From Dongia mobilis (GTDB taxonomy: Bacteria > Pseudomonadota > Alphaproteobacteria > Dongiales > Dongiaceae), in assembly GCF_004363235.1 (NCBI RefSeq), contig NZ_SNYW01000012.1, forward strand, positions 131,501 through 195,500: DNA of 64,000 bases. The letters run 5' to 3'. Shown here piece after piece: positions 6,172 to 33,256 of the stretch. Within the stretch, counting starts at the first letter, position 1. Each line of letters begins with the position of its first letter. A model generated the notes under the pieces. The model was not told where the DNA came from. It worked only from the letters and a program-made list of their open reading frames with translations, and did not search any database. The position numbers and the translations under genes were made by a program.

Positions 6172-7758
6172 TCAGTGCGGCTGTTCCTTGACCTTCAGGA
6201 ACTTCACCTTGGGGTGATCGGCTTGCGCCCGGTCGAGATGCCAGGCATTGCGGGCAAGGAAGACGGGATCGCCGTTATGGTCCTTCGCCATGCTGGCCCG
6301 GGTCTCGTCCAGGAACGACTTGAGAGCCGCGGCATCGTCGCTCTCCACCCAGCGCGCGGTATGGAGGCTGGTCGGCTCGAAGCGCACCGGCAGGCCGTAT
6401 TCCGTGCGGATGCGGTCGGCCAGCACTTCGAACTGCAGCGCGCCGACCACGCCGACGATATAGTCCGTGCCGATCTCCGGGCGGAAGACGCGCGCCGCCC
6501 CCTCCTCCGCCAACTGCTCCAGCGCCTTGCCGAGATGCTTGGCACGCAGCGGATCATCGGCGCGAACGGATTGCAGGTATTCCGGCGCGAAACTGGGAAT
6601 GCCGGTGAATTGCAGCGCCTCACCCTCGGTCAGCGTATCGCCGATCCGGAGATTGCCGTGATTGGGTATGCCGAGGATATCGCCGGCAAACGCCTCTTCC
6701 GCGATCTCGCGATCCTGCGCCAGGAAGACCACCGGATTGTGCAGGTTGATCTGCTTGCCGGATCGGACATGCAGCATCTTCATGCCGCGCTGGAACTGGC
6801 CGGAGCACAGGCGGAAGAAGGCGATGCGGTCGCGATGCTTGGGATCCATGTTGGCCTGGATCTTGAAGACGAAACCGGTTGCCTTCTCCTCGGTCGGCGC
6901 CACGTCGCGTGTCGTCGTGTGCTGCACGCGGGGCGGCGGCGCCATTTCGGCAAGACCCGCCAGCAGTTCGCCAACGCCGAAATTGTTGACCGCCGAACCG
7001 AAATAGACCGGCGAGAGGTGGCCTTCACGATAGGCCTGAAGGTCGAACGACTTCATCAGGCCGCGCGCCATCTCGACATCCTCGCGCAGGCGCGCAACCT
7101 CGTCGGGTTTCAGATGTGAGTCCAGCGCCGGATCGTTGATGCCCTTGATCTCGATCTCGGCCTCGTCCTGCTTGCCGCCGCGCTCGAACAGGAACAGCCG
7201 GTCGCGCAGCAGGTCGAAACAGCCCTTGAAAGTCTTGCCCATGCCGATCGGCCAGGAGGCCGGCGTCACGTCGAGGGCCAATTGCTGCTCGATCTCGGAA
7301 AGTAGATCGATCGGCTCGCGCCCTTCGCGGTCCATCTTGTTGATGAAGGTGACGATCGGCACGTCGCGCAGGCGGCAGGCCTCGAACAGCTTGAGGGTCT
7401 GGGATTCGATGCCCTTGGCCGCATCGATCACCATCACGGCGCTGTCGACAGCGGTGAGGGTTCGGTAGGTATCCTCCGAGAAATCCTCGTGGCCCGGCGT
7501 GTCGAGCAGGTTGAAGGCGCAGCCCCGATACTCGAAGCTCATCACCGAGGCGGTCACCGAGATGCCGCGCTCGCGCTCGACCTTCATCCAGTCGGAACGT
7601 GCGCGCCGCTGTTCGCCGCGCGCCTTGACGGCGCCGGCCAGCTGGATGGCGCCGCCGAACAGCAGCAGCTTTTCGGTCAGCGTGGTCTTGCCGGCGTCCG
7701 GGTGGGCGATGATCGCGAAGGTGCGGCGCCGCGATACTTCGTTGGGCAGGTTGGCCAT
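6172..7758 (-). CDS. prfC: Peptide chain release factor 3
   Basis: Translational GTPase that recycles RF1/RF2 from the ribosome. 528 aa, the normal RF3 length. G1 AHPDAGKTTLTEKLL, G3 LLDTPGHEDFSEDTYRTL, G4 FINKMDREGR and the RF3-specific C-terminal part (VGALQFEVLADRIRTEYGLP, RWVESDD) are all visible. A TTG six codons upstream is in frame, but the ATG at 7758 (MANLPNEVSRRRTFAIIAHP) matches family starts. It is the first of a long run of minus-strand genes, with an 86-nt gap to the EamA stop codon. Confidence 0.97.
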   Translation of the reverse strand: MANLPNEVSRRRTFAIIAHPDAGKTTLTEKLLLFGGAIQLAGAVKARGEQRRARSDWMKVERERGISVTASVMSFEYRGCAFNLLDTPGHEDFSEDTYRTLTAVDSAVMVIDAAKGIESQTLKLFEACRLRDVPIVTFINKMDREGREPIDLLSEIEQQLALDVTPASWPIGMGKTFKGCFDLLRDRLFLFERGGKQDEAEIEIKGINDPALDSHLKPDEVARLREDVEMARGLMKSFDLQAYREGHLSPVYFGSAVNNFGVGELLAGLAEMAPPPRVQHTTTRDVAPTEEKATGFVFKIQANMDPKHRDRIAFFRLCSGQFQRGMKMLHVRSGKQINLHNPVVFLAQDREIAEEAFAGDILGIPNHGNLRIGDTLTEGEALQFTGIPSFAPEYLQSVRADDPLRAKHLGKALEQLAEEGAARVFRPEIGTDYIVGVVGALQFEVLADRIRTEYGLPVRFEPTSLHTARWVESDDAAALKSFLDETRASMAKDHNGDPVFLARNAWHLDRAQADHPKVKFLKVKEQPH

Positions 7759-7844
7759 GGATATCCCAAGCTTCAATTTTGCCGCAATCTACGCATTCCG
7801 GCGGGAATTTCCACCCCTATGATCGCGGCGACCCGTATGATTCT

Positions 7845-8735
7845 TCAGGCTTTTTTCGAACTTACCAGCATCACGCCGCCAAGCACGAAGGCGCCGCCCA
7901 GAATCTGCTCGAGGGAAACACTTTCCCCCAGCAGCGCCCAGGCGAAGAAGATGGTGGCGACCGGACCGATCGAGCCGATGATCGAGACCTTGGCGGCCCC
8001 GATGAGCTGGATCGCCCTCGCCGTCAGGAAGATCGGCAACAGGGTCGAGACGACCGCCATGGCCAGCGCATAGGCATAGACCTGCCATGGCTGGCCGAAC
8101 GCCGTGGCCAGCGGGCTCTGGATTGCGAAATGGCCGATGCAGGCGATGGCTGCCACCGTGGTGGCTAGGGCCGCGAAACGCGTGGAGCCGATCCGGGTCA
8201 TCATCTGTCCCGACCCCACCAGATAGATCGCATAGGTGATCATGCACAGAAAGACGAGACCGCCGCCGATCAACGTCGCCGCCTGATCGCCGGTCACCCG
8301 CACGTCATGCACGAAGGCGATGGCGATGCCGAGATAGGAGAGTGCCATGGCGGCAATGGCGCGACCAGTGATCGGCTTCTTGAGGACATAGACCGAGATC
8401 AGCACCACGACGGTCGGGTAGAGGAACAGAATCAGGCGCTCGAGACCGGCCGAAATATACTGCAGCCCCAGGAAGTCGAGCAGGCTGGACAGGTAATAGC
8501 CGAAAAACCCCAGGAAGAGGATCGCCCGCCAATCGCGCGGGCTGAGTGCCGTCGTCGATCCGCGTCCCGACCACCAGGCTGCCGCCAGCAGCACCGGAAG
8601 CGAGAACGTCATGCGCAGCGCGAGCAGCAGCACGGCATCAACCCCGTACTGATAGGCAAGCTTAACAAAGATCGCCTTCATCGAGAAGGCGGCGGAGGCA
8701 ATGAAGGCGAGCCAGACGCCGCGGTGGATTGTCAT
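7845..8735 (-). CDS. EamA/DMT-superfamily transporter
   Basis: Inner-membrane protein of 296 aa with about ten hydrophobic segments in two EamA repeats (ends SIIGSIGPVATIFFAWALLG and ILGGAFVLGGVMLVSSKK). The substrate cannot be read from the sequence. Members export amino acids, nucleotides or other metabolites. The start at ATG 8735 (MTIHRGVWLAF) puts the first membrane helix right after the initiator; an in-frame TTG 18 codons upstream is less likely. It does not obviously belong with prfC or rsfS functionally. Confidence 0.87.
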   Translation of the reverse strand: MTIHRGVWLAFIASAAFSMKAIFVKLAYQYGVDAVLLLALRMTFSLPVLLAAAWWSGRGSTTALSPRDWRAILFLGFFGYYLSSLLDFLGLQYISAGLERLILFLYPTVVVLISVYVLKKPITGRAIAAMALSYLGIAIAFVHDVRVTGDQAATLIGGGLVFLCMITYAIYLVGSGQMMTRIGSTRFAALATTVAAIACIGHFAIQSPLATAFGQPWQVYAYALAMAVVSTLLPIFLTARAIQLIGAAKVSIIGSIGPVATIFFAWALLGESVSLEQILGGAFVLGGVMLVSSKKA

Positions 8736-19583: not shown

Positions 19584-20324
19584 ATGAAACGCACCAGCCT
19601 TCTCGTCGCCGCCTTCGCCGCCGCCATCGCCATCGCCCAGCCATCCCAGGCCGAAGACCTCATCGTCGCCACCGACACCGCTTTCGTGCCGTTCGAGTTC
19701 AAGGAGGGTGACAAATACGTCGGCTTTGACATCGATATGTGGGACGCCATCGCCCAGGAGATCGGCGTGACCTACACGCTGCAGCCGATGGATTTCAACG
19801 GCATCATTCCGGCCCTGCAGACCAAGCAGGTCGATGTTGCGCTGGCCGGCATTACCATCAAGGAAGAGCGCCAGAAGGTGATCGACTTTTCCGACGGCTA
19901 TTATGACAGCGGCTTCCTGCTGATGGTCCCGGCCGACAGTTCGATCAAGGGCGCCGAGGATCTGAAGGGCAAGATCCTGGCGGTCAAGACCGGCACCTCG
20001 GCGACCGATTACGCCAAGGAGCACTTCACCGAAACCGAGTTGCGGCAGTTCCCCAATATCGACAACGCCTATCTCGAGCTGCAGACCGGGCGCGTCGACG
20101 CGGCGATGCACGACACACCCAACGTGCTCTATTACATCGCCACCGCCGGCGGCGGAAAGGTCAAGGCGGTGGGCGAGCAGATGATGGCGCACCAATACGG
20201 CATCGGCTTCCCGAAGGGCAGCGAGTTGGTTGCCAAGGTCAATGCCGCCCTCGCCAACATGAAGAAGGACGGCCGCTACAACGAGATCTACAAGAAGTGG
20301 TTCGGCGCCGAACCGCAGAGCTGA
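19584..20324 (+). CDS. glnH: GlnH-like amino-acid ABC transporter substrate-binding protein
   Basis: Periplasmic binding protein, 246 aa, with a signal peptide (about residues 1-23, ending SQA). The mature part follows E. coli GlnH closely: [97 protein letters not shown]. Glutamine is therefore the first guess, though the catabolic neighbours leave room for a related ligand. It is followed by a 12-bp hairpin and then the permease gene. Confidence 0.9.
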
Positions 20325-20335
20325 TCACCCGCGTC

Positions 20336-20362
20336 AGGCGCGCCGGCATCGCCGGCGCGCCT
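20336..20362 (+). repeat. Perfect 12-bp hairpin between glnH and glnP
   Basis: AGGCGCGCCGGC, loop ATC, GCCGGCGCGCCT, with no T-tract. A stable stem directly after a binding-protein gene usually protects the upstream mRNA from 3' decay and so raises binding protein over membrane subunits. Confidence 0.75.
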
Positions 20363-20385
20363 CACACCTCACCAGGATGGTCGCC

Positions 20386-21042
20386 ATGGAATTCGACTGG
20401 TCCGTTATCGTCGATGCCACCCCCGCATTGCTCGGCGGCGCTCGCCTCACGGTTCTGATCACGCTGGTCGGCCTCGCCGGCGGCCTTGCGGTCGGCTTCG
20501 TCGCCGGCCTGATGCGGGCCTATGGCGGTCGCTTCCTGAGCGCCCTCGCCTTTACCTATATCGAGCTCATCCGCGGCACGCCGATCGTCGTCCAGGTGAT
20601 GTTCATCTACTTCGCCCTGCCGGTGCTGGCCGATATCCGCGTCAATCCGATGACCGCCGCCATGACGGCCATCATCGTCAATGCCGGCGCCTATATCGCC
20701 GAAATCGTGCGCGGCTCGTTCCTCTCGGTCCACAAGGGCCTGAAGGAGGCCGGGCTGGCAATGGGCCTGCCGATGTGGAAGGTGCTGCTCTATATCATCG
20801 GCCCGGTGGCGTTCCGGCGCATGATTCCGCCGCTCGGCAACCAGTTCATCGTCAGTCTGAAGGACACCTCGCTGTTCATCGTCATCGGCGTCGGCGAATT
20901 GACGCGCCAGGGCCAGGAGATCATGGCGGCGAATTTCCGAGCGGTCGAGATCTGGACGGCGGTTGCCATTCTCTATCTGCTGATGACCGGCACCCTGACC
21001 CTGATCCTGCGGATCACCGAGAAGAGGATGCGGATGCTATGA
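20386..21042 (+). CDS. glnP: Glutamine-type ABC transporter permease
   Basis: 218 aa from ATG 20386, which has AGGA at good spacing; ATG 20377 would add three codons. Five or so membrane helices are present, with the HisMQ-type N-terminal block ([40 protein letters not shown]) and the EAA loop [20 protein letters not shown] that contacts the ATPase. It overlaps glnQ by 4 nt (ATGA). Confidence 0.93.
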
Positions 21043-21767
21043 GCCTCGTCAAACTCTCGAAAGTGACCAAGACCTTCGGCACCGTCGTCGTGCTGCAGGA
21101 AGTCGATCTCAGCATCGAGGCCGGCGAGGTGGTGGTGCTGGTCGGCCCGTCGGGGTCGGGGAAGTCGACCCTGCTGCGCTGCATCAACGCGCTGGAGCCG
21201 ATCAATGGTGGGGACCTCATCGTCGACAATATCAGCGTCCGTGCCGGCCGCTCGCAGATACGCGCCATCCGCCAGGAAGCCGGCATGGTCTTCCAGCAGT
21301 TCAACCTGTTTCCCCAGATGACCGCGTTGCAGAACGTCGCTTTCGGACCACGGCATGTCCGGGGTGCTGGCAAGGCCGAGGCGCTTGCCCAGGCCCAGGC
21401 CCTGCTGGCCAAGGTCGGCCTGGCCGAGCGCGGGCATCACTATCCCAGCGAACTCTCGGGCGGCCAGCAGCAGCGCGTCGCCATTGCCCGGGCGCTCGCG
21501 GTCAAGCCCAAGCTGATGCTGTTCGACGAGCCGACCTCGGCGCTGGATCCCGAACTGCGGCACGAGGTGCTGCAGGTCATGAAATCGCTGGCCGAGGAGG
21601 GGATGACCATGATCGTGGTCACCCATGAAATGGCGTTTGCCCGTGAAGTCGGCACGCGGCTGATTTTCATGGAGGACGGCAAGATCTCCGTCGATGGCGA
21701 TCCGGCCAGCCTGCTCAGCAATCCCGACAACCAGCGGCTGCGCGAGTTCCTGCAACATGTCCACTAG
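21039..21767 (+). CDS. glnQ: Glutamine-type ABC transporter ATPase
   Basis: 242 aa. Walker [17 protein letters not shown]-loop [17 protein letters not shown], signature [16 protein letters not shown], Walker [15 protein letters not shown] and the switch histidine VVTHEMAFA are all intact. It is a polar amino-acid type ATPase without a C-terminal regulatory domain. Start overlaps the permease stop. The next gene begins 4 nt after its stop or, if ATG 21757 is used, overlaps it. Confidence 0.95.
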
Positions 21768-21771
21768 GGTC

Positions 21772-22821
21772 ATGCCGGACCTTGCGGCGCTCGACATCTC
21801 GGGCTCGCCCTATGAGGTCGGCCTGCAGCTTGGCCGCTTCGGCGCGCGGATCACCCACGACTATCTCCGCCATTCCCCGGCATGGCTCGGTGTCATGGCA
21901 CACCGTGCCGACCCGAAGCTCGAAGAGATGCGGAGGTTGACCCAAACCCGTTACGCGGCCTATTGGCAGGAACTCCAGGGACTGGCGGACGGCCTCGATC
22001 TTCCCTTTGACGACGTCTTTCTCTGGAACTGTCGCGGCGACATCTGGGCGCTGGCGCCGGACGGGTGCACGACCGTGCAGATTCCGGGCGACATTCCCGG
22101 CGCAGCGCACCTGATCGCGCATAACGAGGACGGCGATCCAGGTCTGCGGAGCCATTGCGCGATAGCACGGATCGCGCCCGGCGGCGGGGCTGGCTTCCGC
22201 AGCTTCATCTATCCCGCCTCGCTACCCGGGCATACCTTTGCTGTGACCGATCGGGGATTGGTCCAGACCGTCAACAATATCCGCGCCGGCGCCGGCGCTG
22301 CCGGTCTGCCGCGCATGGTGCTGGGGCGCGCCGTGCTCGATTGCCAGGATATCGATGACGCCATCGCGCTACTGAAGGCTGCACCGCGCGCGGGGGCCTT
22401 TCATTTCACGCTCGCGCAAGCGGGCGATCCGCGGATCTTGAGCATCGAGTTCACCCACAATCAATGCTCGGTCGCGGGTGTGACGGGCGCTGATTGCCAC
22501 GCCAACCACCTGGTGCATCCGCGGATGACCGGCGAAGCCCAGACGATCACCGCTTCTTCCCAAGCTCGTCAGCGGCGCGCGCGCGAGATGATTGCCAAAG
22601 CCAGCACCGGCCGGGAGGTTGACGCCCTCGCCATCCTTTGGGATCAGGCGAACTCCACCCTGCCGATCTATCGCGCACAGCCCGACGATCCGGATCAAGA
22701 AAATACGCTGGCGACGGCAGAGTTCGTGGTAGCCGAAGACGCCGTCGACTGCCGGATCCACGAACGCGACGGAAGCGCGCCCGTGATGACCTTCCGCGTA
22801 CCGGCCGCGGCGGCGGCCTAG
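21772..22821 (+). CDS. C45-type acyltransferase/amidase (isopenicillin-N-acyltransferase-like)
   Basis: 349 aa from ATG 21772; ATG 21757 is an alternative start. The family pattern is clear: ISGSPYEVGLQLGRF at the start, LPFDDVFLWNCRGD, APDGCTTV with Gly98-Cys99 as the likely self-cleavage site and nucleophile (Gly102-Cys103 in the Penicillium enzyme), LIAHNEDGD, and TDRGLVQTVNNI. Members hydrolyse or transfer acyl groups on amides such as penicillins or N-acyl dopamine and beta-alanine. As the last gene of the glnHPQ operon it may remove an acyl group from the imported compound (inference). Its stop codon overlaps that of the opposing SLC13 gene in the bases CTAG. Confidence 0.87.
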   Translation: MPDLAALDISGSPYEVGLQLGRFGARITHDYLRHSPAWLGVMAHRADPKLEEMRRLTQTRYAAYWQELQGLADGLDLPFDDVFLWNCRGDIWALAPDGCTTVQIPGDIPGAAHLIAHNEDGDPGLRSHCAIARIAPGGGAGFRSFIYPASLPGHTFAVTDRGLVQTVNNIRAGAGAAGLPRMVLGRAVLDCQDIDDAIALLKAAPRAGAFHFTLAQAGDPRILSIEFTHNQCSVAGVTGADCHANHLVHPRMTGEAQTITASSQARQRRAREMIAKASTGREVDALAILWDQANSTLPIYRAQPDDPDQENTLATAEFVVAEDAVDCRIHERDGSAPVMTFRVPAAAAA

Positions 22822-24623
22822 AGCGGCCAGACCAGCAGCAGCATCGGCAGGGCTACCGCCACCACGATCACCTCCAGCGGCAGGCCGAGTTTCCAGTAGT
22901 CGCCGAAGCGAAAACCGCCGGGGCCAAGGATGAGTGTGTTGTTCTGGTGGCCGATTGGTGTCAGGAACGCGCAGGAGGCACCCACCGCAACCGCCATCAG
23001 GAAGGGGTCCGCGCTGGCGCCCATCGAGTTTGCCGTCCCGATCGCGATCGGGCACATCACCGCCGCCGTCGCCGCATTGTTCATGAAATCGGACAGCGTC
23101 ATGGTGACGACCAGGATGAGGCCGAGCGCGACAATGGCATGCCCCCGTGCCACGCCGTCCAGCAGCAGGCGCGCGATAAGGTCGGCCGTCCCGGTGGTCG
23201 CCATTGCCTCGGCCACGGGGATGAGGGCGCCGAGCAGCACGATCACGGGCCAATCGACGGCGTCATAGACGCGGCGCGGCGATACGGTCCGGAAAGCCAT
23301 GCTGGCGAGCACGCCGCCGGCAAACGAGATTGCCGCCGGCAATAAGCCGACGGCCGCGCTGCCGACCGAGGCCAGCATGATCGCAGCCGCGATGAAGGCC
23401 TGGCGGCTGTCGGGTAGTCGCAGCGATCGTTCGGCCAGGGGAACGCCGCCGCATTGCGCGGCAAAATCGGCAATCGCGTCCGGCGTTCCCTGCATCAGCA
23501 GCACGTCGCCGGGCTGGATCGGCATTGTCCGCAAGCGCGCAATCGAGCGCTGGCCCTGGCGCGAGATAGCAAGAAGGTTGATGCCATAGGTCGAACGCAA
23601 CCGGATGTCGCTGGCGGAACGGCCGGCCAGAACCGAATTCGGCAGCACAGCAATTTCCCGCAGCAGAATGTCCTCGGGCAGTGCCGCGGCTTCTGCTGCC
23701 CCTTCGGCCTTCTCCGTCTCGCCCTTCTGGTCGGTGACGGCCTCTTCCAGGGTGAGGTTGAGTGTGGACAGGACCGCTGCCAGCGCCTTGGGTTCGGCCT
23801 CGATGATGAGAATGTCCCCGGCCTGCACCTTGCGCGCCGGGTTGGGGGCTGTCACGCGAAACTCCCGCCGCACCAGGCCGACGATCTGGGCGTCGGCTTC
23901 GTCGAGCACCCGCTCGATTTCGCGCAGGGTCATGCCGACGGCCTTTGCCTTGTCGGAGACCCGCGCCTCGGTGAGGTAGGCGCCGGTGTCAAATTCCTCC
24001 GCGCCGGCACCCTTGCGTGCCGGCACCAGTCGCCAGCCGACCAGCGCCACGAAGCCGAGGCCGGCCGCCGCCACGGCCAGGCCGACCGGGGTGAAATCGA
24101 ACATCGAGAAAGACGCATTGCCGAGGCCGCTGCGGAAGCTGGACACGATGAGGTTTGGCGGGGTTCCGATCAGTGTCGTCATGCCGCCGAGGATGGAGCC
24201 GAAGGCCAGCGGCATCAGCACCTTGCCGGGCGGCAGGTTCTGGCGTGCCGCCATCTGCAACGCCACAGGCATCAGCAGGGCTAGCGCCCCGACATTGTTC
24301 ATGAAGGCGGAAAGAATGGCGGCGAGGCCGGTCACTGCGGCAATGGCCAGGGTCGGTCCGGCCGCTTCCGGCAGGACCCGCTCGGTCAGTATGTCGATGA
24401 CGCCGGATGCCTGCAGGCCGTGACTGAGCACCAGGACACAAGCCACCGTGATGACCGCGGGATGCGCGAAACCGGCAAATGCATCCGCGGCCGGCACAAC
24501 GCCGGCGACGACGCCGGCGAGCAACGCGGCAAGCGCCACCATGTCATGCCGCCAGCGACCCCACAGGAACATGGCGGCAGCGGCGGCCAGGATGGCAAGG
24601 ATGAAAACCTGATCTTCCGTCAT
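22818..24623 (-). CDS. SLC13-family permease with two RCK-C (TrkA-C) domains
   Basis: 601 aa. N-terminal membrane half with FMNNVGALALLMPVALQMA and FGSILGGMTTLIGTPPNLIV (family helix-turn signature), two cytosolic TrkA-C domains (about residues 190-400: EIERVLDEADAQIVGLVRRE, ILLREIAVLPNSVLAGRSAS), and a second membrane half ending FMNNAATAAVMCPIAIGTAN and LTPIGHQNNTLILGPGGF. Relatives take up sulfate or dicarboxylates; the ligand is unknown. Start ATG 24623 (MTEDQVFIL) precedes the first helix. It is convergent with the C45 gene and divergent from DUF1330. Confidence 0.92.
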   Translation of the reverse strand: MTEDQVFILAILAAAAAMFLWGRWRHDMVALAALLAGVVAGVVPAADAFAGFAHPAVITVACVLVLSHGLQASGVIDILTERVLPEAAGPTLAIAAVTGLAAILSAFMNNVGALALLMPVALQMAARQNLPPGKVLMPLAFGSILGGMTTLIGTPPNLIVSSFRSGLGNASFSMFDFTPVGLAVAAAGLGFVALVGWRLVPARKGAGAEEFDTGAYLTEARVSDKAKAVGMTLREIERVLDEADAQIVGLVRREFRVTAPNPARKVQAGDILIIEAEPKALAAVLSTLNLTLEEAVTDQKGETEKAEGAAEAAALPEDILLREIAVLPNSVLAGRSASDIRLRSTYGINLLAISRQGQRSIARLRTMPIQPGDVLLMQGTPDAIADFAAQCGGVPLAERSLRLPDSRQAFIAAAIMLASVGSAAVGLLPAAISFAGGVLASMAFRTVSPRRVYDAVDWPVIVLLGALIPVAEAMATTGTADLIARLLLDGVARGHAIVALGLILVVTMTLSDFMNNAATAAVMCPIAIGTANSMGASADPFLMAVAVGASCAFLTPIGHQNNTLILGPGGFRFGDYWKLGLPLEVIVVAVALPMLLLVWPL

Positions 24624-24742
24624 GATTCCGCAGTTTCTGAAGTCGAAAAAGATTGCCGCGCCGGCCTGCGGCCGTTCCACGGCCGGGTCATCTTCGTGCT
24701 AGGGTCGCTTGTTGCCGCGATATCAGCATGGGAGCCGGAAGG

Positions 24743-25033
24743 ATGAAAGCCTATTGCATCGTCTATGAAAACATTGACGACCCGGAGATGTTCCAAACCT
24801 ATCGCGCACAGGTGATGCCGACGATCGAGGCCCATGGCGGCCGGTTTCTGGTTCGGGGCGGGGCCTTCACGGTACTGGAGGGCGAAATGCCGTACTCGCG
24901 CATCGCCGTGCTGGAGTTTCCGTCGCGCCAGGCAGCTGAAGATTGGTACCATTCGCCGGATTACCAGCGCATCCTGCCCTATCGCCTCAAGGCCGCCCGC
25001 TGCCAGTTCGTGGTGGCGGACGGGATCGGCTGA
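24743..25033 (+). CDS. DUF1330-family protein
   Basis: 96 aa, dimeric alpha-beta-barrel-like fold: MKAYCIVYENIDDPEMFQTY, GGRFLVRGG, RIAVLEFPSRQAAEDWYHSP and YRLKAARCQFVVADG. Function unknown for the family. The ATG at 24743 follows GGAG by 8 nt. It stands alone, divergent from the SLC13 gene and convergent with the phosphorylase gene. Confidence 0.88.
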   Translation: MKAYCIVYENIDDPEMFQTYRAQVMPTIEAHGGRFLVRGGAFTVLEGEMPYSRIAVLEFPSRQAAEDWYHSPDYQRILPYRLKAARCQFVVADGIG

Positions 25034-25075
25034 GGCAAGGCATCGATCCACCCACCGGATAGCAGCAGCAATCCC

Positions 25076-26569
25076 CTAGCGCGCCGGATTGAGTTGATAG
25101 CCGGAGCCGGCTGCCACCATACTGGTAGCGAAGCGGAAATCGGTCGGGTGCGCCGCATGGATGCGGTAGAGAGGTTCGCCCTTCTGCACCGGGTCGCCAA
25201 CCTTCCTGAAGAGGTCGATGCCGGCGCCCTTGTCGGTGGGCGCCCCGGCAATGCGGGCAAGCCGCGCCAAGCGATAGCAATCGATCGACGCCACGATGCC
25301 GTCGGCCTCGGCAGGGACGTCATGACGCAGGGGGCCCAGATCGGGTCTTGCCGGCGGCGATCCCTGGGCGGTCATGATCAACTCCATCTGGCGAGCCGCA
25401 GCGCCGCTCTCGAGCAGTTCGAGCGCACGCGCATGCCCCTTGCCGCCACGCAGCCCGGGATCGAAGTCGAGAATATGTCCGGCCAGCAGCAGGGCCCGGG
25501 CGCGCAGGTCCCGTGGCGCCAGCGGATCGTTTTCCAGCACCCGCATCACATCGCGCGCCTCCAGCATCGGGCCGATGCCATTGCCGACCGGCTGCGAGCC
25601 GTCGGTGATCTCGACCCGCACAACGAGGCCCAGCTGGTCGCCGACGAATTCGAACAGCTTGCGCAAGCGGATGGCGTCGGCATGGGTTCGCACCTTGGCC
25701 GTGGGTCCGGCGGGAATGTCGATCACCAGATGGCTCGACCCGGCGGAGAGCTTCTTCGACAGAATGGATGCCACCAATTGTTCGCGCGTATCGATGCCGA
25801 GCGGTCGTTCGACCGAGATCAGGATATCGTCGGCCGGTGCAAGATTCACATGGCCGCCCCACACGATGCAGCCATGGGTGGCGCGTACGATGTCGCGCAT
25901 CTCGTCGATGTCGATTTCGACCCTGGCCAGCACCTCCATCGTGTCGGCGGTGCCGGCCGGCGAGGTGATCGAGCGCGACGAGGTCTTCGGGATGGTGAGG
26001 CCGTGCGCCGCCACGATCGGCACCACGATCATCGAGGTGCGGTTGCCGGGAATGCCGCCGATGCAATGCTTGTCGACCACCAATTGATCCGGCCAGGTGA
26101 GCCGGCTGCCAACGGCGGCCATGGCCCGGGTCAGGCCCAGCACCTCGTCGGTGGTGAGGAAACTCGCCGAGGCGATGAGAAAGGCCGCGATTTCCATCTT
26201 GGAATAGCGGTTGGCGGCGATGTCGCGGATGATCGCCTCGAAATCCGCCGGCGACAATGTTTCGCCCAGGACCTTCGCGCGCACCGCCTCGCGGCTGGCC
26301 GGCGGCAACGCCTGTGCCACCTGTACGATCTCGCCTGCCGGCAGGCCGAGCTGGCGGAACCCGGATTCAGAGAGGCCCAGTTCGTCGGCGCCGAGCAGGC
26401 CGGCATCGTCGATGATGTTGAGCACGGCGAGGATGGAGCGGCCGTTCCTGGAGACCTCGATCTTGGCGAGGCCCTGGAACTTCTCCGCCCGATAGAGCGG
26501 GCAGTCGCGCGAGAGATAGGCGACGTTCTCGCGATAGGTATCGATCGCCATGGGTTTCAGTTTGAGCAC
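25076..26569 (-). CDS. Thymidine-phosphorylase-superfamily enzyme of the AMP phosphorylase type
   Basis: 497 aa, matching archaeal AMP phosphorylases in length (about 500) rather than bacterial DeoA/Pdp (about 440). It has the extra N-terminal domain (about 1-85), [20 protein letters not shown] (167-186) and the signature [18 protein letters not shown] (195-212). Archaeal enzymes release the base from NMPs by phosphorolysis to give ribose-1,5-bisphosphate. Bacterial members are usually just called thymidine phosphorylase, so NMP specificity here is inference. Start is GTG 26569 with GGAG upstream; ATG 26551 is possible. It diverges from phnN across an FNR-type box. Confidence 0.9.
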
Positions 26570-26629
26570 GCGCGCAAGTCTCCATCGCCGCTGACGGAAA
26601 TCATTTGCCAGACCTGCCCCTGATCATAC

Positions 26630-26643
26630 TTGATTCAAATCAA
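26630..26643. promoter_or_regulatory. FNR/FixK-type box between the phosphorylase and phnN genes
   Basis: TTGAT-TCAA-ATCAA, a perfect match to TTGAT-N4-ATCAA, with the symmetry extending one base each side (C and G). It lies in the 127-nt divergent intergenic region, centred 67.5 nt from the phosphorylase start and 60.5 nt from phnN. A TTATTC at 26665-26670 would put it near -41.5 for phnN. Confidence 0.8.
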
Positions 26644-26696
26644 GCAGGGACAGGGCGATCCCGGTTATTCGTTATATGCGGCGAGGACACGGGACC

Positions 26697-27263
26697 ATGC
26701 AGCAACCATCGGCGGCCGGCCGGTTCATTTATGTGATGGGCGCCTCGGGCGCCGGCAAGGACAGCGTCATGTCGCTGGCCCGGCAGCAGCTCGGCCCTGC
26801 CGACGCGGTTGTTTTCAGCCATCGCTATGTCACGCGCCCGGCCGAACTCGGCCACGAGAACTACGTCGCCCTGACACCGGCGGAATTTACCCTGCGCCGC
26901 GACAGGGGGCTCTTCCTGTTCGACTGGCGGGCCCATGACCTCGCCTACGGTATCGGCATCGAGGCCGATCTGTGGCGCCGGGCCGGGCTCGACGTCGTCA
27001 TCAGCGGTTCCCGCGCCCATTTTGCAACCCTGCCTGCGCTGCCGCACCTCCTCCCCGTGCTGATCGATGCACCGCCGGACGTGCTGCGGCAGCGTCTGCT
27101 GGCGCGCGGCCGCGAGGGAACGGCGGCGATCGAGGCGCGACTTGCCCGCGGCCAGTCGCTCAGGCCGGCGCATCCAAAGCTGGTGACCGTCGAGAATGCG
27201 GGCCTGCTCGCCGCGGCGGCCGGGCGCTTCCTCGCCTTGCTGCGCGGCGCGGCGATCAGGTAG
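26697..27263 (+). CDS. phnN: Ribose 1,5-bisphosphate phosphokinase
   Basis: Phosphorylates ribose-1,5-bisphosphate to PRPP. 188 aa with a guanylate-kinase-like fold: Walker A VMGASGAGKDSVM (about 13-25), SHRYVTRPAELGHENYVALT, the lid-region LFLFDWRAHDLAYGIG and VVISGSRAHFATLP. PhnN is best known from C-P lyase operons, but no phn genes are present here; its partner appears to be the divergent NMP phosphorylase, which would make its substrate. Start ATG 26697 follows GAGGA. It converges on the phosphoribosyltransferase gene with an 8-nt overlap. Confidence 0.93.
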   Translation: MQQPSAAGRFIYVMGASGAGKDSVMSLARQQLGPADAVVFSHRYVTRPAELGHENYVALTPAEFTLRRDRGLFLFDWRAHDLAYGIGIEADLWRRAGLDVVISGSRAHFATLPALPHLLPVLIDAPPDVLRQRLLARGREGTAAIEARLARGQSLRPAHPKLVTVENAGLLAAAAGRFLALLRGAAIR

Positions 27264-27918
27264 CTGGCGGACGGCCGAGCATCTCGCGGCAGGTTCCCAG
27301 CAGGGCAACCACCTCGGCATCGGCGACCTGCGGGAAATGCCGGTAATAGGCACCAACGGCACCAAATCCTTCGGGGATCGACAGACAGACGAGGTCGTCG
27401 ACTTCCCTGCGCAGCATTTCGACCGTGTCGCTGGGCCCCACGGGCACGGCCAGCACGACGCGCTTCGGCCCCTGACGGCGCAGGGCACGCAGGGCAGCGC
27501 GCGCCGTCGCCCCGGTCGCCAGGCCGTCATCGACCACGATGGCGACCTTGCCGGCCGCGGAAAGCGGTGCATGGCCACAAAGGTAGACCTGCCGCCGCCG
27601 GTGGATCTCCTTCAACTCGCGTTCGCTCGCTTGCCGCAGGAACTCGGGCGTGGGCTGGAGTAGCCGCACGATGTCTTCGTTCAGAACGATCTCGGGCTCG
27701 GCCCCGTCCACCACGGCGCCAAGTGCCAGTTCCGGCTGGAATGGCGCCGAGATTTTCCGGACCATGATGAGATCGAGCGGGGCCGACAGAGCCCTAGCCA
27801 CTTCGAAGGCAACCGGCACGCCGCCCCGCGGCAGGGCGAAGACGATGCAATCCTGGCCGCGATAGGCGTCGAGTGCGGCAGCAAGCTGTCGACCGGCCTC
27901 ATTGCGACCCTGGAACAT
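27256..27918 (-). CDS. Phosphoribosyltransferase-domain protein (COG1926 type)
   Basis: 220 aa. The PRPP-binding loop VVDDGLATGAT is at 128-138, preceded by CIVFALPRGGVPVAFEVARA and MVRKISAPFQPELALGAVVD. The base substrate is unknown; the COG1926 group is not a standard purine or pyrimidine salvage enzyme. ATG 27918 with GGGGAGG upstream is the start. Together with the NMP phosphorylase and PhnN it would close a loop from NMP through ribose-1,5-bisphosphate and PRPP (inference). An FNR-type box lies 61 nt before its start. Confidence 0.9.
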   Translation of the reverse strand: MFQGRNEAGRQLAAALDAYRGQDCIVFALPRGGVPVAFEVARALSAPLDLIMVRKISAPFQPELALGAVVDGAEPEIVLNEDIVRLLQPTPEFLRQASERELKEIHRRRQVYLCGHAPLSAAGKVAIVVDDGLATGATARAALRALRRQGPKRVVLAVPVGPSDTVEMLRREVDDLVCLSIPEGFGAVGAYYRHFPQVADAEVVALLGTCREMLGRPPAT

Positions 27919-27978
27919 GCTCAGCCTCCCCATGCCTTGGGATGGCTGGAAACCTAGGGCCTCCGGCCGGACGATATC

Positions 27979-27992
27979 TTGACCTGAATCAA
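27979..27992 (-). promoter_or_regulatory. FNR/FixK-type box upstream of the phosphoribosyltransferase gene
   Basis: Read on the minus strand, TTGAT-TCAG-GTCAA, one base off TTGAT-N4-ATCAA. Its centre is 67.5 nt from the start codon, the same spacing as the box before the phosphorylase gene. TAGGTT (27956-27951) is a possible -10 for activation at -41.5. Confidence 0.75.
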
Positions 27993-28011
27993 GTCGGGGC
28001 GGCGGCCGCCC

Positions 28012-28782
28012 TCAATCCGCGCCCTTCATCTCCTGAAGGATATTGCCGCCATCGACCACCAGCATCTGACCGGTGATATAGGAGGCTTCGCTGCTGGCGA
28101 GAAAAACGGCCGCGGCCGCCACTTCCGCCGGCCGCCCCGGGCGACCCAATGGCGTATGCCGGCCGGCCTCGATCTCCCTGGCCGATGACGACGCAGTTTC
28201 GATCCAACCCGGGCCGATGGCATTGACCGTGACGCCCTTGCTGCCGACCTCGACCGCCAGCGCCCGGGTCATCCCCATCATTGCGGCCTTGGCGGTCGAA
28301 TAGCCGGCACTGCCCGGATTAGTGACCAGCGGACCGGTCACCGAGGAGATGTTGACGATGCGGCCATATTGCCGGCGCAGCATCTGCGGCAGCACGGCGC
28401 GCGTCACCAGGAAACAGGTATCGAGGTTGATCTCCATCGTGCGGCGCCAATCCGCCGTCGCGATCCTGTGGAATAGGGCGGTCTTCTCGCGCCTGCCGGT
28501 CTGGATCATGCCGGCGTTGTTGACCAGGATGTCGATCCTGCCCACCGATTTGTTGACGGCAGCGACGAGGGCGTCGACCTCGGCCTCGACAGTGAGATCG
28601 GCGATGAATGAGGCATGGCCGTCGCCAGCCAGTTCGCGCCGGCGGTCATGGATACGACGGGTGGTCGAGGTGATGGCGACGCGCGCACCCGCCGCCGCCA
28701 GCGCCTTCGCGGTTGCAAAACCGATCCCATCCGAACTGCCGGCACCCGTTACCAGCGCGATCCGGCCTTCCAAGCTCAACAT
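28012..28782 (-). CDS. SDR-family oxidoreductase
   Basis: 256-aa classical short-chain dehydrogenase/reductase. The cofactor loop GAGSSDGIGFA is a TGxxxGxG variant with an inserted residue pair, NNAG is present, and the catalytic set is N-x-S (ISSVTG), Y-S-T-A-K (YSTAKAAMM). The end ITGQMLVVDGGN is typical of FabG-like members. An Arg pair (TTRRIH) after the second strand suggests NADPH. Substrate unknown. GGGGAG precedes ATG 28782. It is divergent from the aminotransferase gene at 28883. Confidence 0.93.
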   Translation of the reverse strand: MLSLEGRIALVTGAGSSDGIGFATAKALAAAGARVAITSTTRRIHDRRRELAGDGHASFIADLTVEAEVDALVAAVNKSVGRIDILVNNAGMIQTGRREKTALFHRIATADWRRTMEINLDTCFLVTRAVLPQMLRRQYGRIVNISSVTGPLVTNPGSAGYSTAKAAMMGMTRALAVEVGSKGVTVNAIGPGWIETASSSAREIEAGRHTPLGRPGRPAEVAAAAVFLASSEASYITGQMLVVDGGNILQEMKGAD

Positions 28783-28882
28783 GGCAGTGCTCCCCGCTCT
28801 TCATATTCCTCAAGACCTTACCCCTGTTCGGCAGGGATTTTCGGCTCTCCCCCTTGCTTAACCGGGGGCGCGGTCGCTATCA

Positions 28883-30289
28883 ATGGCGCCCTCGACAACA
28901 GCGAAAGGGGCACGTGCGCGCATCATGGCATCACTGGAAGCCGGCCTGCCGATCAAGCAGGTCGACGCGATGATCAAGCGAGAGAGAGACCGTTACATCC
29001 AATCCAATCCCGTTTCCCGGAAGCTCGGCGAAGACGCCCGCAAGAACTGGGTCAAGGGCGTTCCCCATCACTGGATGCTGGACTGGTCGACCCCCTTCCC
29101 GCTCTTCGTCGCCGATGCCAAGGGTACGACCCTCACCGATGCCGACGGCCACACTTACGACGATTTCTGCCTGGGCGATACCGGCTCGATGTTCGGCCAT
29201 TCGCCGGAACCAGTGGCCAGAGCCATCGCCGCGCAGGCGTCCCACGGCCTTACCTACATGCTGCCGACCGAGGACATCATCGCGGTGGGTGCGGCACTCG
29301 AGAGGATGTTCGGCCTGCCCTTCTGGCAGGTGGCGACGACGGCAACGGATGCCAACCGCTTCGTGCTGCGCTGGTGCCGCGCCATCACGAAACGACAGAA
29401 GATCCTGGTCTTCCACGGCTGCTATCACGGTGCCGTCGACGACACCTTCGTGCGATTGAAGGACGGCCGGGCGATCCACCGCCCCGGCCTCATCGGCCAG
29501 GTCTACGACCTCACCGCCAACACCAAGGTGGTCGAGTTCAACGACGTGCCGGCACTGCAAGCAGCCCTCAAGGATCGCGACGTCGCCTGCGTCATCACCG
29601 AACCGGCGCTGACCAATATCGGCATGGTGTTGCCGCAAGCCGGCTTCCTCAAGGCGCTGCAGCAGGCCTGCCGTGATACCGGCACGCTGCTGGTGATCGA
29701 CGAGACGCATACCATCTCGACCGGCTATGGCGGCTATACCCGCACGCACGGACTGAAGCCGGACTTCCTGACCCTTGGAAAACCGGTGGCGGGCGGCCTG
29801 CCCTGTTCGGTCTTCGGTTGCACCGCTGAGATCGCCGAGCGGATGCGCGCGGCGGAACAGGAAGCGGGGCCCGGCTACAGCGGCATGGGCACTACCTTGT
29901 CCGCCAATGTGCTGCAGTTCAAGGCGATGCGCGCCAACCTCGAGGAAGTGATGACGCCGGCGGCTTATGCGCACATGCTGCCCCTGTCGGAAAAGCTGGC
30001 CCGCGGCATCGAGGCGGAGATCACGCAACGCGGCCTGCCCTGGCATGTCTCGAATGTCGGTGCGCGGGCCGAATTCGTCTGCGCGCCGGAACGGCCGAGG
30101 AACGGCAGCGAGGCGCAGGACGCCATGCATGGCCCGGTCGAGCTGGCGGTCCATCTCTATCTCTTGAATCGCGGCTTGCTGATCGCGCCCTTCCACAACA
30201 TGACCCTGGTCAGCCCGGCGACGACGCCGGCCCAGGTGGACCGCCTGGTGGCGACGATCGGCAACTGTCTCGACGAACTGGCTGCCTGA
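28883..30289 (+). CDS. Class III aminotransferase, glutamate-1-semialdehyde-aminomutase type
   Basis: 468 aa from ATG 28883; ATG 28925 (MASLEAGLPIKQ) is a fair alternative. The PLP lysine is in FLTLGKPVAGGLPCSVFG, the PLP-nitrogen Asp in LLVIDETHTIS, and YHG of FHGCYHGAVDDTF is conserved. The usual S-G-[ST]-E-A loop reads TTATDANRFVLRW. It is unlikely to be HemL because an ALA synthase is present at 54515. It lies 28 nt upstream of a PuuA-like gene, which points to catabolism of an amine or amino acid (inference). Confidence 0.9.
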   Translation: MAPSTTAKGARARIMASLEAGLPIKQVDAMIKRERDRYIQSNPVSRKLGEDARKNWVKGVPHHWMLDWSTPFPLFVADAKGTTLTDADGHTYDDFCLGDTGSMFGHSPEPVARAIAAQASHGLTYMLPTEDIIAVGAALERMFGLPFWQVATTATDANRFVLRWCRAITKRQKILVFHGCYHGAVDDTFVRLKDGRAIHRPGLIGQVYDLTANTKVVEFNDVPALQAALKDRDVACVITEPALTNIGMVLPQAGFLKALQQACRDTGTLLVIDETHTISTGYGGYTRTHGLKPDFLTLGKPVAGGLPCSVFGCTAEIAERMRAAEQEAGPGYSGMGTTLSANVLQFKAMRANLEEVMTPAAYAHMLPLSEKLARGIEAEITQRGLPWHVSNVGARAEFVCAPERPRNGSEAQDAMHGPVELAVHLYLLNRGLLIAPFHNMTLVSPATTPAQVDRLVATIGNCLDELAA

Positions 30290-30317
30290 CCGGCGCCGCA
30301 ACTTCTTCCTGGAGAAC

Positions 30318-31703
30318 ATGATGAGCAATTACGTGGCCGATATCGGCACCTGCGACGCGTTCCTGGCGGCGCATCCCGAAGTCAGGTTCGTGCAGATCTA
30401 TTTCACCAACCAGTCGGGCGTGCCGCGCGGCAAGAACCTGCTGCGCCATGACATCCGGCCGATCTACGAATACGCCCGCTTCCTGCCGGGTACCATGCTG
30501 GCGCTCGACATCACCGGCATGGATGTCGAGGAATCGGGCCTGGTCTGGACCGATGGCGACGCCGATCGCCTCGGCAAGCCGACGCCCCAGGGCCTCACCC
30601 TCGCGCCATGGCTGGGGCCGGATTTCGCCCAGCTGATGCTGAGCGTCTATGAACTCGACGGCAGCCCCTGCGATGTCGACCCGCGCCACGTCCTGCAGGG
30701 CGTCATCGACCGATTCAAGGAATTCAACCTGACCCCGGTCATCGCCTGCGAGATGGAATTCTACCTGATCGACCGCGAGAACCGCGCCGATGGCGGGAAA
30801 CAGCCGCCGGCCTCGCCCGTCACCGGCAACCGGCCCTGGGACATCCAAGTCTATGGCCTGCGCGAACTCGACGATTTCGAGCCCTTCTTCCGCGACGTCT
30901 ATGCCATGGGCGAGCAGGTCGGCCTGCCGCTGGAATCGGCGATCTCGGAATATGCGCCGGGGCAGCTGGAACTCGGCCTTCAGCACCGGGCTGACGCCTT
31001 GCGCGCCTGCGACGAGGCCATCATGTACAAGCGCCTGGTGAAGGGCGCCGCCGTGCGCCACGGCTTCGAGGCCAGCTTCATGGCAAAACCGCACAGCGAC
31101 ATCGCCGGTTCCGGCATGCATCTTCATGTCAGTCTCGGCAATCCGGATGGCAGCAACGCCTTTGCCAGCGACGACCCGGCCGGCAGCCCGCTGCTGAGGC
31201 AGGCGATTGGCGGCATGCAAGCCCTGCTGGATGAATCCATGGCCGTTTTCGCGCCAAACGCGAATTCCTATCGCCGCTTCAGATCAAATTCCTATGCACC
31301 GGTGGCGCCGACCTGGGGCATCAACAACCGCACGGTCAGTTTCCGCGTGCCGGCCGGTCCGCCCAAGTCGCGCCATATCGAGCACCGCATCTGTGGCGCC
31401 GATGCCAATCCATATCTCGCCGTGGCCGCGCTGCTGGCGGCGATCCACTGGGGACTGAAGCAGAAGCTCGACCCCGGTGCGCCCGTCGAAGGCAACGGCT
31501 ATGAAGTGGCCCGGGAAATGGGCCTGACCCTGCCGACCAACTGGCAGGCTGCCATCGACATGTTCCGCAAGTCTGCGCGGATGAGGGAGTATCTCGGCAC
31601 CCGTTTCCATCATGTTTACAGTTCCGTGAAGCAGGCCGAGCACGACCGCTTCAATGCCCGCGTCACCGAACTCGACTATGCTTGGTATCTGCGCAACGCC
31701 TGA
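30318..31703 (+). CDS. Glutamine synthetase family protein, gamma-glutamylpolyamine-synthetase-like
   Basis: 461 aa with a complete GS catalytic domain: CEMEFYLID (metal-binding glutamates), SEYAPGQLELGL, SFMAKPHSDIAGSGMHLHVS, NSYRRFRSNSYAPVAPTWGI, then VPAGPPKSRHIEHRICGADANPY. The adenylylation-site tyrosine loop of GlnA is absent, and the N-terminal half resembles PuuA and related amine-glutamate ligases. It probably ligates glutamate to an amine with ATP. Which amine is unknown. GGAGAA lies just before the two consecutive ATG codons (30318, 30321). It is co-transcribed with the aminotransferase. Confidence 0.88.
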   Translation: MMSNYVADIGTCDAFLAAHPEVRFVQIYFTNQSGVPRGKNLLRHDIRPIYEYARFLPGTMLALDITGMDVEESGLVWTDGDADRLGKPTPQGLTLAPWLGPDFAQLMLSVYELDGSPCDVDPRHVLQGVIDRFKEFNLTPVIACEMEFYLIDRENRADGGKQPPASPVTGNRPWDIQVYGLRELDDFEPFFRDVYAMGEQVGLPLESAISEYAPGQLELGLQHRADALRACDEAIMYKRLVKGAAVRHGFEASFMAKPHSDIAGSGMHLHVSLGNPDGSNAFASDDPAGSPLLRQAIGGMQALLDESMAVFAPNANSYRRFRSNSYAPVAPTWGINNRTVSFRVPAGPPKSRHIEHRICGADANPYLAVAALLAAIHWGLKQKLDPGAPVEGNGYEVAREMGLTLPTNWQAAIDMFRKSARMREYLGTRFHHVYSSVKQAEHDRFNARVTELDYAWYLRNA

Positions 31704-31873
31704 CGGTCCGCGCCGGAATGCAGGGGCCGGCATTCCCGACGTCGACCGCTTGTGAGAGTCCCGGCCAAGTGTTAACTTCCCGGGCGACTCGAGATGATGG
31801 CATTGGCGCGTCCCATGCGGCGTCTCGAGAAATGTTGCCTGAATCGGCTGTAGGGATCTGACGAGCGCTGCAT

Positions 31874-32104
31874 ATGGGTCTGTTCCGTTCCAAGAAGGAC
31901 AACCGGGTCGTCGTCGGCAACCGGTATCGCTCAGCCGATACCAATCTCATCACATGGGAAGTCGCTTCGGTCTTCAACGGCATCGATGGCACACCCTATG
32001 CGCACATCTTCTGCGTCCAGGACCAGTCGCGCCGCAAGACCGTCGCCCAGAGCTCGCTCGAAGCCAGCAGCCAGTATATCCGCCTGCCCAACAAGCCGGC
32101 CTGA
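31874..32104 (+). CDS. Small hypothetical protein
   Basis: 76 aa (MGLFRSKKDNRVVVGNRYRS at the start). I do not recognise the family. The middle, ITWEVASVFNGIDGTPYAHI, looks like alternating beta-strand sequence, and the ends are basic. There is no membrane segment and no clear Shine-Dalgarno. Coding support comes from the clean open frame and from the O-methyltransferase start 13 nt after its stop codon. Confidence 0.6.
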   Translation: MGLFRSKKDNRVVVGNRYRSADTNLITWEVASVFNGIDGTPYAHIFCVQDQSRRKTVAQSSLEASSQYIRLPNKPA

Positions 32105-32116
32105 GCGCCCGACGGC

Positions 32117-32773
32117 ATGGGCAAGCATCTGCAGCTGACCGACCGGCTCGATCGCTACCTTCTCGACTTCGCCTTTCGCGACGACGATCTGCTGCGCGCC
32201 TTGCGCGACGAGACGGCGATGATGCCGAACGCACAAATGCAGATCGCGCCCGAGCAGGGCCAGTTCATGGCGCTGCTGGCCCGCATCGCCGGCGTCAGGA
32301 AGGCGCTCGAGATCGGCACTTTTACGGGTTATTCCAGCCTCAGCGTGGCACGCGCCCTGCCTGCGGACGGCCGCCTTGTCTGCTGCGACATCAGCAAGGA
32401 ATTCACCGATGTAGCCCGCCGCTATTGGGACAAGGCCGGGGTCACCGCGAAGATCGACCTGAAACTGGGTTCGGCGCGCGAAACCCTGGCTGCCCTCGAG
32501 AAAACCGAGGCCGGCAGTTTCGACATGGCCTTCATCGACGCCGACAAGCTCAATTACCCGCATTATTACGAATCGGCGCTGGCGTTGCTGCGGCCGGGCG
32601 GCGTGCTGCTGATCGACAACGTACTCTGGGGTGGCGATGTCGCCGATCCCGCGGCGACGGATGCCGAGACCGTGACCCTGCGCGAGCTCAACGCCAGGGT
32701 GAAGGCAGATGAACGCGTCGATTTCTGCCTGCTGCCGGTGGCCGACGGCCTCACCCTCATCCGCAAGCGCTGA
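32117..32773 (+). CDS. SAM-dependent O-methyltransferase, CCoAOMT-like
   Basis: 218 aa. The SAM site KALEIGTFTGYSSLSVARAL, then LVCCDISKEF, FDMAFIDADKLNYPHYYE (metal and catalytic Asp region) and GGVLLIDNVLWGGDVAD cover the catechol/caffeoyl-CoA methyltransferase family. Bacterial members methylate phenolic hydroxyls of small molecules; no substrate is implied by the neighbours. Its stop is 3 nt from the stop of the opposing DUF192 gene. Confidence 0.93.
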   Translation: MGKHLQLTDRLDRYLLDFAFRDDDLLRALRDETAMMPNAQMQIAPEQGQFMALLARIAGVRKALEIGTFTGYSSLSVARALPADGRLVCCDISKEFTDVARRYWDKAGVTAKIDLKLGSARETLAALEKTEAGSFDMAFIDADKLNYPHYYESALALLRPGGVLLIDNVLWGGDVADPAATDAETVTLRELNARVKADERVDFCLLPVADGLTLIRKR

Positions 32774-32776
32774 GCC

Positions 32777-33256
32777 TTACGGCTCGGGCGGGGTTTCCCG
32801 CTGCGGCCATGTGATCCGCGCCCCCGGCCCGATGCCGAGCATGGCCGCAAGCCCGCCGCGAATCTCCAGCGCCGCCTGGGCCGGCTCGATGGAAGGAATC
32901 ATGGTTTCGTCGAAGGGCCGCGCATCGGCCGCCACATGCACCACCCTGCCATCGGCGGCGATGAAGATGATGTCGAGTGGAAGCGGCGTGTTCTTCATCC
33001 AGAAGGTCCGCAGCCGCTCGTCGGGATAGAGGAACAGCATGCCCGCATCATCGGCCAGCCGATCGCGGTACATGAGTCCCAGCGATCGCTCGGCGCCGTC
33101 ATCCGCCACTTCGACGGCGAAGTGGTAGGTGTTGGCGCCGGCCTCGACAGTCAGCGGCACGATCTCCGGCGAGGCATCCTGGGCCACGGCTACGGCCGCC
33201 GCCAGCCATTGCCCACAGAGCAGGAGGATTGCAACAACAACGCCGGTTGCCCGCAT
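32777..33256 (-). CDS. DUF192-domain exported protein
   Basis: 159 aa with an N-terminal signal peptide (about 1-26, ending AVAQ). The DUF192 domain shows FAVEVADDGAERSLGLMYRD, AGMLFLYPDERLRTFWMKNT, LPLDIIFIAADGRVVHV and GGLAAMLGIGPGARI. Role unknown; many bacteria have one copy, thought to be periplasmic. The start ATG at 33256 places the hydrophobic stretch at the N-terminus. It is divergent from coxG, with 117 nt between them. Confidence 0.9.
   Translation of the reverse strand: MRATGVVVAILLLCGQWLAAAVAVAQDASPEIVPLTVEAGANTYHFAVEVADDGAERSLGLMYRDRLADDAGMLFLYPDERLRTFWMKNTPLPLDIIFIAADGRVVHVAADARPFDETMIPSIEPAQAALEIRGGLAAMLGIGPGARITWPQRETPPEP

Follow-up and report, generated by a model that had tools for sequence, protein, structure and literature searches.

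A possible route from nucleoside monophosphates to PRPP encoded beside a second phnN gene of Dongia mobilis

Background

What does a PhnN protein do when its gene lies apart from the genes of phosphonate breakdown? In the carbon-phosphorus (C-P) lyase pathway PhnN acts as a ribose-1,5-bisphosphate (R15P) kinase. In the window analysed here (a 64-kb stretch of contig NZ_SNYW01000012.1 of Dongia mobilis), one phnN gene is flanked by a gene for a type-2 phosphorylase (TP2) and a gene for a phosphoribosyltransferase (PRT):

25076-26569, minus strand: TP2 (497 aa; TIGR02645, NF003338)
26570-26675 (106 bp): divergent intergenic region between TP2 and PhnN, from gene coordinates and sequence
26630-26643, plus strand: FNR/FixK-type palindrome TTGATTCAAATCAA, from a TTGATN4ATCAA search of the window
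26676-27263, plus strand: PhnN, R15P kinase family (195 aa; TIGR02322), second copy in the genome
27256-27933, minus strand: COG1926-like PRT (225 aa; Pribosyltran, nearest structure 1wd5)

Profile matches bear out the first-pass annotation that three such genes stand side by side; it placed the locus correctly, except that its end at 27918 is an internal ATG of PRT (true end 27933). TP2 and PhnN are divergent and PhnN and PRT convergent, with an 8-nt overlap at the PhnN end; the trio is therefore not a single operon. We propose, with a probability of roughly 0.7, that this module converts nucleoside monophosphates (NMPs) to 5-phosphoribosyl 1-diphosphate (PRPP), bypassing ribose 5-phosphate: TP2 would use phosphate to split an NMP into free base and R15P; PhnN, judged by its family, would use ATP to phosphorylate R15P to PRPP; and, as the weakest step, the adjacent PRT would use PRPP on some base. 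As a prediction, the TP2-PhnN pathway is well supported by what is observed, namely family membership, repeated linkage and fusion, conserved motifs and a conserved box, from which its chemistry, direction and regulation are inferred; the role of PRT in it is a guess.

The three proteins and their families

The window TP2 is a member of the type-2 family, matching NF003338 with 677.5 bits (cut-off 434) and TIGR02645 with 619.6 bits (cut-off 434.6) over its full length (residues 2-493), including an N-terminal extension that is absent from the DeoA models. DeoA and PyNP models match only from residues 93-102 onward and stay below their cut-offs (144.5 against 570.7 bits for TIGR02643, 177.4 against 409.05 for TIGR02644 and 191.7 against 269 for NF004490); a separate DeoA-like protein is encoded elsewhere in the genome (L020). 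The closest PDB structures are 4ga5, 4ga6 and 4ga4, named "putative thymidine phosphorylase" there, which we take to be the AMP/NMP phosphorylase of Thermococcus kodakarensis. Seven TP2-wide residues (P174, K195, T202, S203, W237, R255 and K292) are common to 4ga5 and unlike those of four DeoA-like proteins of the order.

The window PhnN scored 185.4 bits against TIGR02322 (cut-off 156) and kept 24 of the 27 columns that are invariant among nine C-P-lyase PhnNs, with the P-loop intact. The sole PhnJ match of the genome lies on another contig (C1:388342, the window being on contig C7), together with a second PhnN (C1:391380); C-P lyase in the window was judged by PhnJ, without individual searches there for the other phn genes. 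The earlier premise of a PhnN without C-P lyase, stated for the window, thus fails for the genome, which has PhnJ and a PhnN to go with it.

The PRT matched Pribosyltran with 57.8 bits (cut-off 26.3) and carries a PRPP-loop-like stretch, VVDDGLATGAT. Its closest solved relative is 1wd5 (TT1426; E 5e-38), and we take both to belong to COG1926. We know of no earlier linkage of such phosphoribosyltransferases to TP2 or PhnN.

Linkage and fusion of TP2 and PhnN

Co-occurrence in related genomes had been set beforehand as the test that could refute the module, and it did not refute it: the trio was found together in three of the four TP2-bearing genomes among the seven of the genus examined (D. mobilis itself, G000, with G006 and G007), in the same divergent and convergent arrangement; among the 17 genomes of the order these three alone have it. 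Across the order PhnN occupies 12 places: eight within 5 kb of PhnJ, three beside TP2 in the trio genomes, and one elsewhere (G014, whose second PhnN has no TP2 or NadC match within its 10.5-kb locus). Besides the TP2-linked copy, G000 and G007 each have another PhnN near PhnJ. In G006 PhnN is solely TP2-linked and PhnJ has no match; this assembly is rated 98% complete but is split over 330 contigs, so that a missing PhnJ does not prove the gene absent. A contig end truncates the TP2 gene of G006, and a different contig carries another piece of TP2. PRT is present in 10 of the 17 genomes and stands beside PhnN and TP2 only in the trio genomes, that is, wherever PhnN is TP2-linked (3/3). At another locus (L097) PRT lies 4.7 kb from TP2, with no PhnN.

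In a survey of 397 genomes of the phylum, TP2 and PhnN were both present in 19, and PhnN lay within 300 nt of TP2 in five of these (chance expectation, by a rough estimate, well under 0.1). In the class (337 genomes), PhnN was found in 61, PhnJ in 63 and TP2 (E <= 1e-80) in 53, of which five have PhnN adjoining (G000, G007, G069, G311 and G334). A total of 58 TP2 neighbourhoods was collected, six of them from four genomes of the order outside the class sample, and 59 loci were tabulated with the window (neighbours by tblastn at E <= 1e-6; counts overlap, some loci are incomplete and some genomes give two rows). The neighbours were a metallo-hydrolase of beta-CASP look in 36, a Prs-like (PRPP-synthase-like) gene in 28, PhnN with PRT in three, PhnN with NadC in three, and none of these in 12, the metallo-hydrolase and Prs-like names being read from the sequences and not from a family scan. 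The Prs-like neighbour likewise suggests PRPP as the end product.

The usual PRPP loop has the form ...DTxGT. In two of the Prs-like proteins (L064 and L058) the loop reads DDIISTARTM and DDVISSGMTV, and these proteins may have a different substrate.

In all three class loci with PhnN and NadC (L098, L099 and L101), PhnN and TP2 form a single open reading frame of ~682 residues, which scores above the cut-off in both parts and immediately follows NadC (TIGR00078 319-325 bits, cut-off 198.4); a TRAP permease gene accompanies L099 and L101. A one-genome-per-species scan with these three fusions as queries gave 285 relatives, and the best 80 were analysed, a list that is biased to fusions by its queries and in which one sequence (L124) equals L099. 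Among these best 80, PhnN and TP2 were fused in 71, neighbouring at 3-11 nt in eight, and without PhnN match in one; NadC was matched in 77, immediately upstream in 76. The best 80 span at least 27 named genera (many are Bosea, and 34 loci are without genus assignment). Found independently of the fusion queries were the three fusions of the class sample and four in the 397 phylum genomes, all seven with NadC; at least two of the latter four are also among the best 80 (G595 = L198, G660 = L154).

The locus without PhnN match (L201, Comamonadaceae 2FH, 7001-8482) holds a TP2 of the fused clade with neither PhnN nor NadC match and with Mo-hydroxylase-like genes nearby, and one fusion locus (L194) is on a contig filed as Flavobacteriaceae, by transfer or mis-binning. 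Three further candidates were rejected: in G584 and G502 the long frames that hold PhnN have it at the end of apparent read-through, with no TP2 or NadC match in the loci, and a TP2 piece of G554 has an internal TGA and no PhnN match in its 13-kb locus.

Among 49 PhnNs placed in a tree, the window and G007 copies pair (100/99) and fall, away from the fused PhnNs, in a five-row clade together with C-P-lyase PhnNs of the genus (100/99); bootstrap was unsettled in this tree, its deeper forks have weak support, and no single branch sets off the fused PhnNs. A quick tree of 80 TP2s unites the fused proteins in one clade (27 rows, SH-aLRT 100) and places the window TP2 outside it, among TP2s neighboured by the metallo-hydrolase (99). 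Since both trees place the window copies apart from the fused ones, PhnN joined TP2 on at least two occasions, with different PhnN stocks as the source. Such repeated joining makes R15P the likely product of TP2 and PRPP the likely end product; it is the best evidence that what TP2 releases is probably what PhnN uses. Thus the proposal that the phosphorylase supplies the substrate of PhnN gains support from the fusions and the separate joining, and its further parts, NMP specificity and the PRT step, stand as inference only.

Between 81 TP2s of the fused clade and 43 others (nine rows without known neighbour excluded; L099 and the identical L124 both counted), seven positions separate the groups (window numbering): 150 M/R, 169 C/S, 178 T/I, 204 P/A, 238 G/N, 243 L/H and 251 I/N. 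The window TP2 has the letter of 4ga5 at five of them (M150, T178, G238, L243 and I251). Positions 238 and 243 are in the same loop as 251, which aligns with a DeoA tyrosine that we assume to be a base contact (Tyr168 in E. coli). The separating residues fit different bases for the window-type and fused clades, as far as an alignment can suggest.

The intergenic box and the surrounding genes

The palindrome TTGATTCAAATCAA is the only exact TTGATN4ATCAA in the window (0.02 expected) and lies between TP2 and PhnN, as does a box in the other two trio genomes (one copy mismatched). Upstream of TP2 in the genus the box is exact in G000, G004 and G006 and has one mismatch in G007, whose second TP2 (L083) has no box within 300 nt upstream. 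Within 300 nt upstream of TP2, four of the 59 loci have an exact box, where its density in these loci predicts ~0.4, and nine have a box with no more than one mismatch (~2 expected). On the consensus that we presume for FNR/FixK, this putative box suggests that oxygen shortage induces the TP2/PhnN pair. Promoter-like sites numbered 1 (0.5 in shuffles) and terminator-like sites 2 (1.4), and an Rfam scan of window positions 22000-33000 gave no match at the gathering score.

The trio is flanked (window 19584-31703) by ABC transporter genes resembling, by appearance, those of amino-acid uptake and by CitMHS/TrkA_C transporter, DUF1330, SDR, class-III aminotransferase and glutamine-synthetase-like genes. 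A candidate tmRNA gene lies at 1146-1505 (tag ANDNVASDLRMAA).

The fusion clade and quinolinate

The neighbours of the fusion clade suggest what its phosphorylase might act on. A 6-hydroxynicotinate-reductase-like gene is near 16 of the best 80 loci (a soft name: neither Pfam nor NCBIfam gives the protein a match, and 4 among 12 plasmid rows listed carry this name), and a reductase-like, Mo-hydroxylase or FAD monooxygenase gene is present in 29 of 80, compared with 1 of 55 TP2 loci without NadC fusion (Fisher's p = 4e-7, ignoring kinship; the control loci are shorter, median 13.5 against 16.0 kb, and drawn from another sample). The single control match, near a contig end in L114, itself a window-type locus, is 34% identical over 144 residues. 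Neither the Mo-hydroxylase nor the monooxygenase query reaches any curated NCBIfam cut-off shown, and the label "NicC-like" for the monooxygenase is our presumption. Solute transport of any one of the TRAP/TAXI, SsuA-like or TctC-like types is found in 56 of the 80 loci and in none of the 55 controls. The 16 loci with the reductase-like gene (L125, L126 and L127 among them) also encode a protein matching NF003322 ("hypothetical protein"), presumably UPF0280.

The transporters and nicotinate-catabolism-like genes often found near the fusion clade suggest a route that converts quinolinate to nicotinate and regenerates PRPP. NadC would join quinolinate to PRPP with loss of CO2, giving nicotinate mononucleotide; the TP2 domain would cut this with phosphate into nicotinate and R15P; and the fused PhnN domain would regenerate PRPP. 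The net reaction would be quinolinate + ATP + phosphate to nicotinate + CO2 + ADP + pyrophosphate. We regard it as close to an even bet, and slightly the worse side of one, that ribose phosphate serves in this way as a reusable handle, with NadC, TP2 and PhnN breaking down quinolinate on catalytic amounts of PRPP and the window trio forming a second module with another phosphoribosyltransferase and oxygen control. An alternative for the fusions is that TP2 cleaves other NMPs and so supplies PRPP to NadC.

No nicotinate-catabolism-like gene is seen in 51 of the 80 loci. The 22 genomes chosen from the best 80 include 7 with a second NadC over cut-off and 11 without NadA match. In these 11 the operon NadC is the only one over cut-off (one fusion-locus NadC examined appears ordinary); in these genomes salvage of nicotinamide adenine dinucleotide from quinolinate may be an additional or the sole task of the operon, which counts against a purely catabolic reading. 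In sections of PMC11452294, phnN stands beside nadC in Variovorax and Jezberella (nadC-phnN-bug27) and is linked to PRPP supply for quinolinate phosphoribosyltransferase. The adjacency of phnN and nadC is common to both neighbourhoods; the main text of that paper does not contain "thymidine phosphorylase", and the fused phosphorylase and the closed cycle are absent from those sections. The cycle was not found in the open-licence PMC literature searched, where no paper containing both "PhnN" and "thymidine phosphorylase" was found; sections of PMC9304392 hold nothing on PhnN with TP2.

Alternative explanations

Sections of PMC9700705 describe both a PhnN of E. coli that makes PRPP from R15P and, in archaea, an NMP shunt (pentose bisphosphate pathway) in which the NMP phosphorylase of T. 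kodakarensis is followed by R15P isomerase and Rubisco. Both the shunt and the window have a relative of NMP phosphorylase predicted to yield R15P. R15P isomerase (TIGR00511), however, has no match in the window genome and none over cut-off in the 17 genomes of the order (one below, in G015), which argues against the archaeal Rubisco branch. We therefore rejected that branch, in agreement with the first-pass annotation, and PhnN would divert the intermediate to PRPP instead of ribulose-1,5-bisphosphate.

Several observations weigh against the proposed module: i) TP2 had been described as an AMP-phosphorylase-type enzyme with an N-terminal domain unlike DeoA, which agrees with its TIGR02645 membership and N-terminal extension but not with its score against the AMP-phosphorylase equivalog TIGR03327 (466.2 bits, under the curated cut-off of 535), and at two of the seven separating positions (169 and 204) the 4ga5 letter is that of the fused clade; ii) the window PhnN departs from the C-P-lyase-invariant columns at three of 27 (L17F, G88D and N110S); iii) three genomes of the genus (G002, G003 and G005) lack a TP2 over cut-off, and a fourth, G004, has a TP2 without linked PhnN; iv) PhnN is near TP2 in just 6 of the 59 class loci and so is a minority partner, the role of TP2 being wider; v) eight class genomes have PhnN but no PhnJ match, and in seven of them PhnN does not lie beside TP2, G069 being the exception. 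Outside the genus, then, PhnNs without C-P lyase are mostly not linked to TP2, and orphan PhnNs therefore have other roles too. Moreover, G000 and G007, having C-P lyase, could also make R15P from phosphonates.

This last point bears on the possibility that the window PhnN is a spare copy for phosphonate breakdown whose place beside TP2 is meaningless. It belongs to the same kinase family as the C-P lyase PhnNs and is nearest to those of its genus, and PhnJ is present in G000 and G007. These two genomes, however, keep another PhnN near PhnJ, and in G006 the TP2-linked PhnN stands without a PhnJ match, so that C-P lyase as the sole reason for the window PhnN was thought unlikely; gene order and box are alike in three genomes, and the fusion clade joined PhnN to TP2 in parallel. 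We consider a spare copy very improbable; at its separate locus the window PhnN would draw its substrate from TP2 and not from phosphonate breakdown. It is scarcely easier to believe that TP2 is a phosphorylase of nucleosides (thymidine, uridine or cytidine) with PhnN as an accidental neighbour. The database name of NF003338 ("thymidine phosphorylase") and the resemblance to DeoA/PyNP structures speak for this, but the kinase to which TP2 is repeatedly fused has a 5-phosphorylated sugar as its family substrate, the TP2-wide residues shared with 4ga5 differ from those of DeoA-like proteins, and the genome has a DeoA-like protein besides.

Phosphorylases are reversible as a rule, and TP2 might work in synthesis, salvaging base and R15P into NMP with PhnN disposing of excess R15P. 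However, a fused kinase that passes R15P on to PRPP pulls in the opposite direction, and an RNase-like metallo-hydrolase beside TP2 in 36 of the 59 class loci fits breakdown; ribose-1-phosphate kinase, which bears on this explanation, was not searched for, and we rate synthesis as unlikely. The strongest contender concerns PRT, which may well be an unrelated neighbour, the module being TP2 and PhnN alone; we put this somewhat below an even chance. PRT shares no operon with TP2 or PhnN, and seven further genomes of the order hold it, never beside TP2; on the other side, it is linked in all three cases of TP2-linked PhnN in the order, and another phosphoribosyltransferase, NadC, adjoins the fusion in the fusion clade.

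Conclusions

R15P has been little studied as an intermediate. If true, a direct bacterial path from nucleotides to PRPP would assign PhnN a function outside phosphonate breakdown, and a family now called "thymidine phosphorylase" would gain a different activity. The fusion clade would, if its reading is true, provide a testable pathway from quinolinate to nicotinate in soil and marine bacteria.

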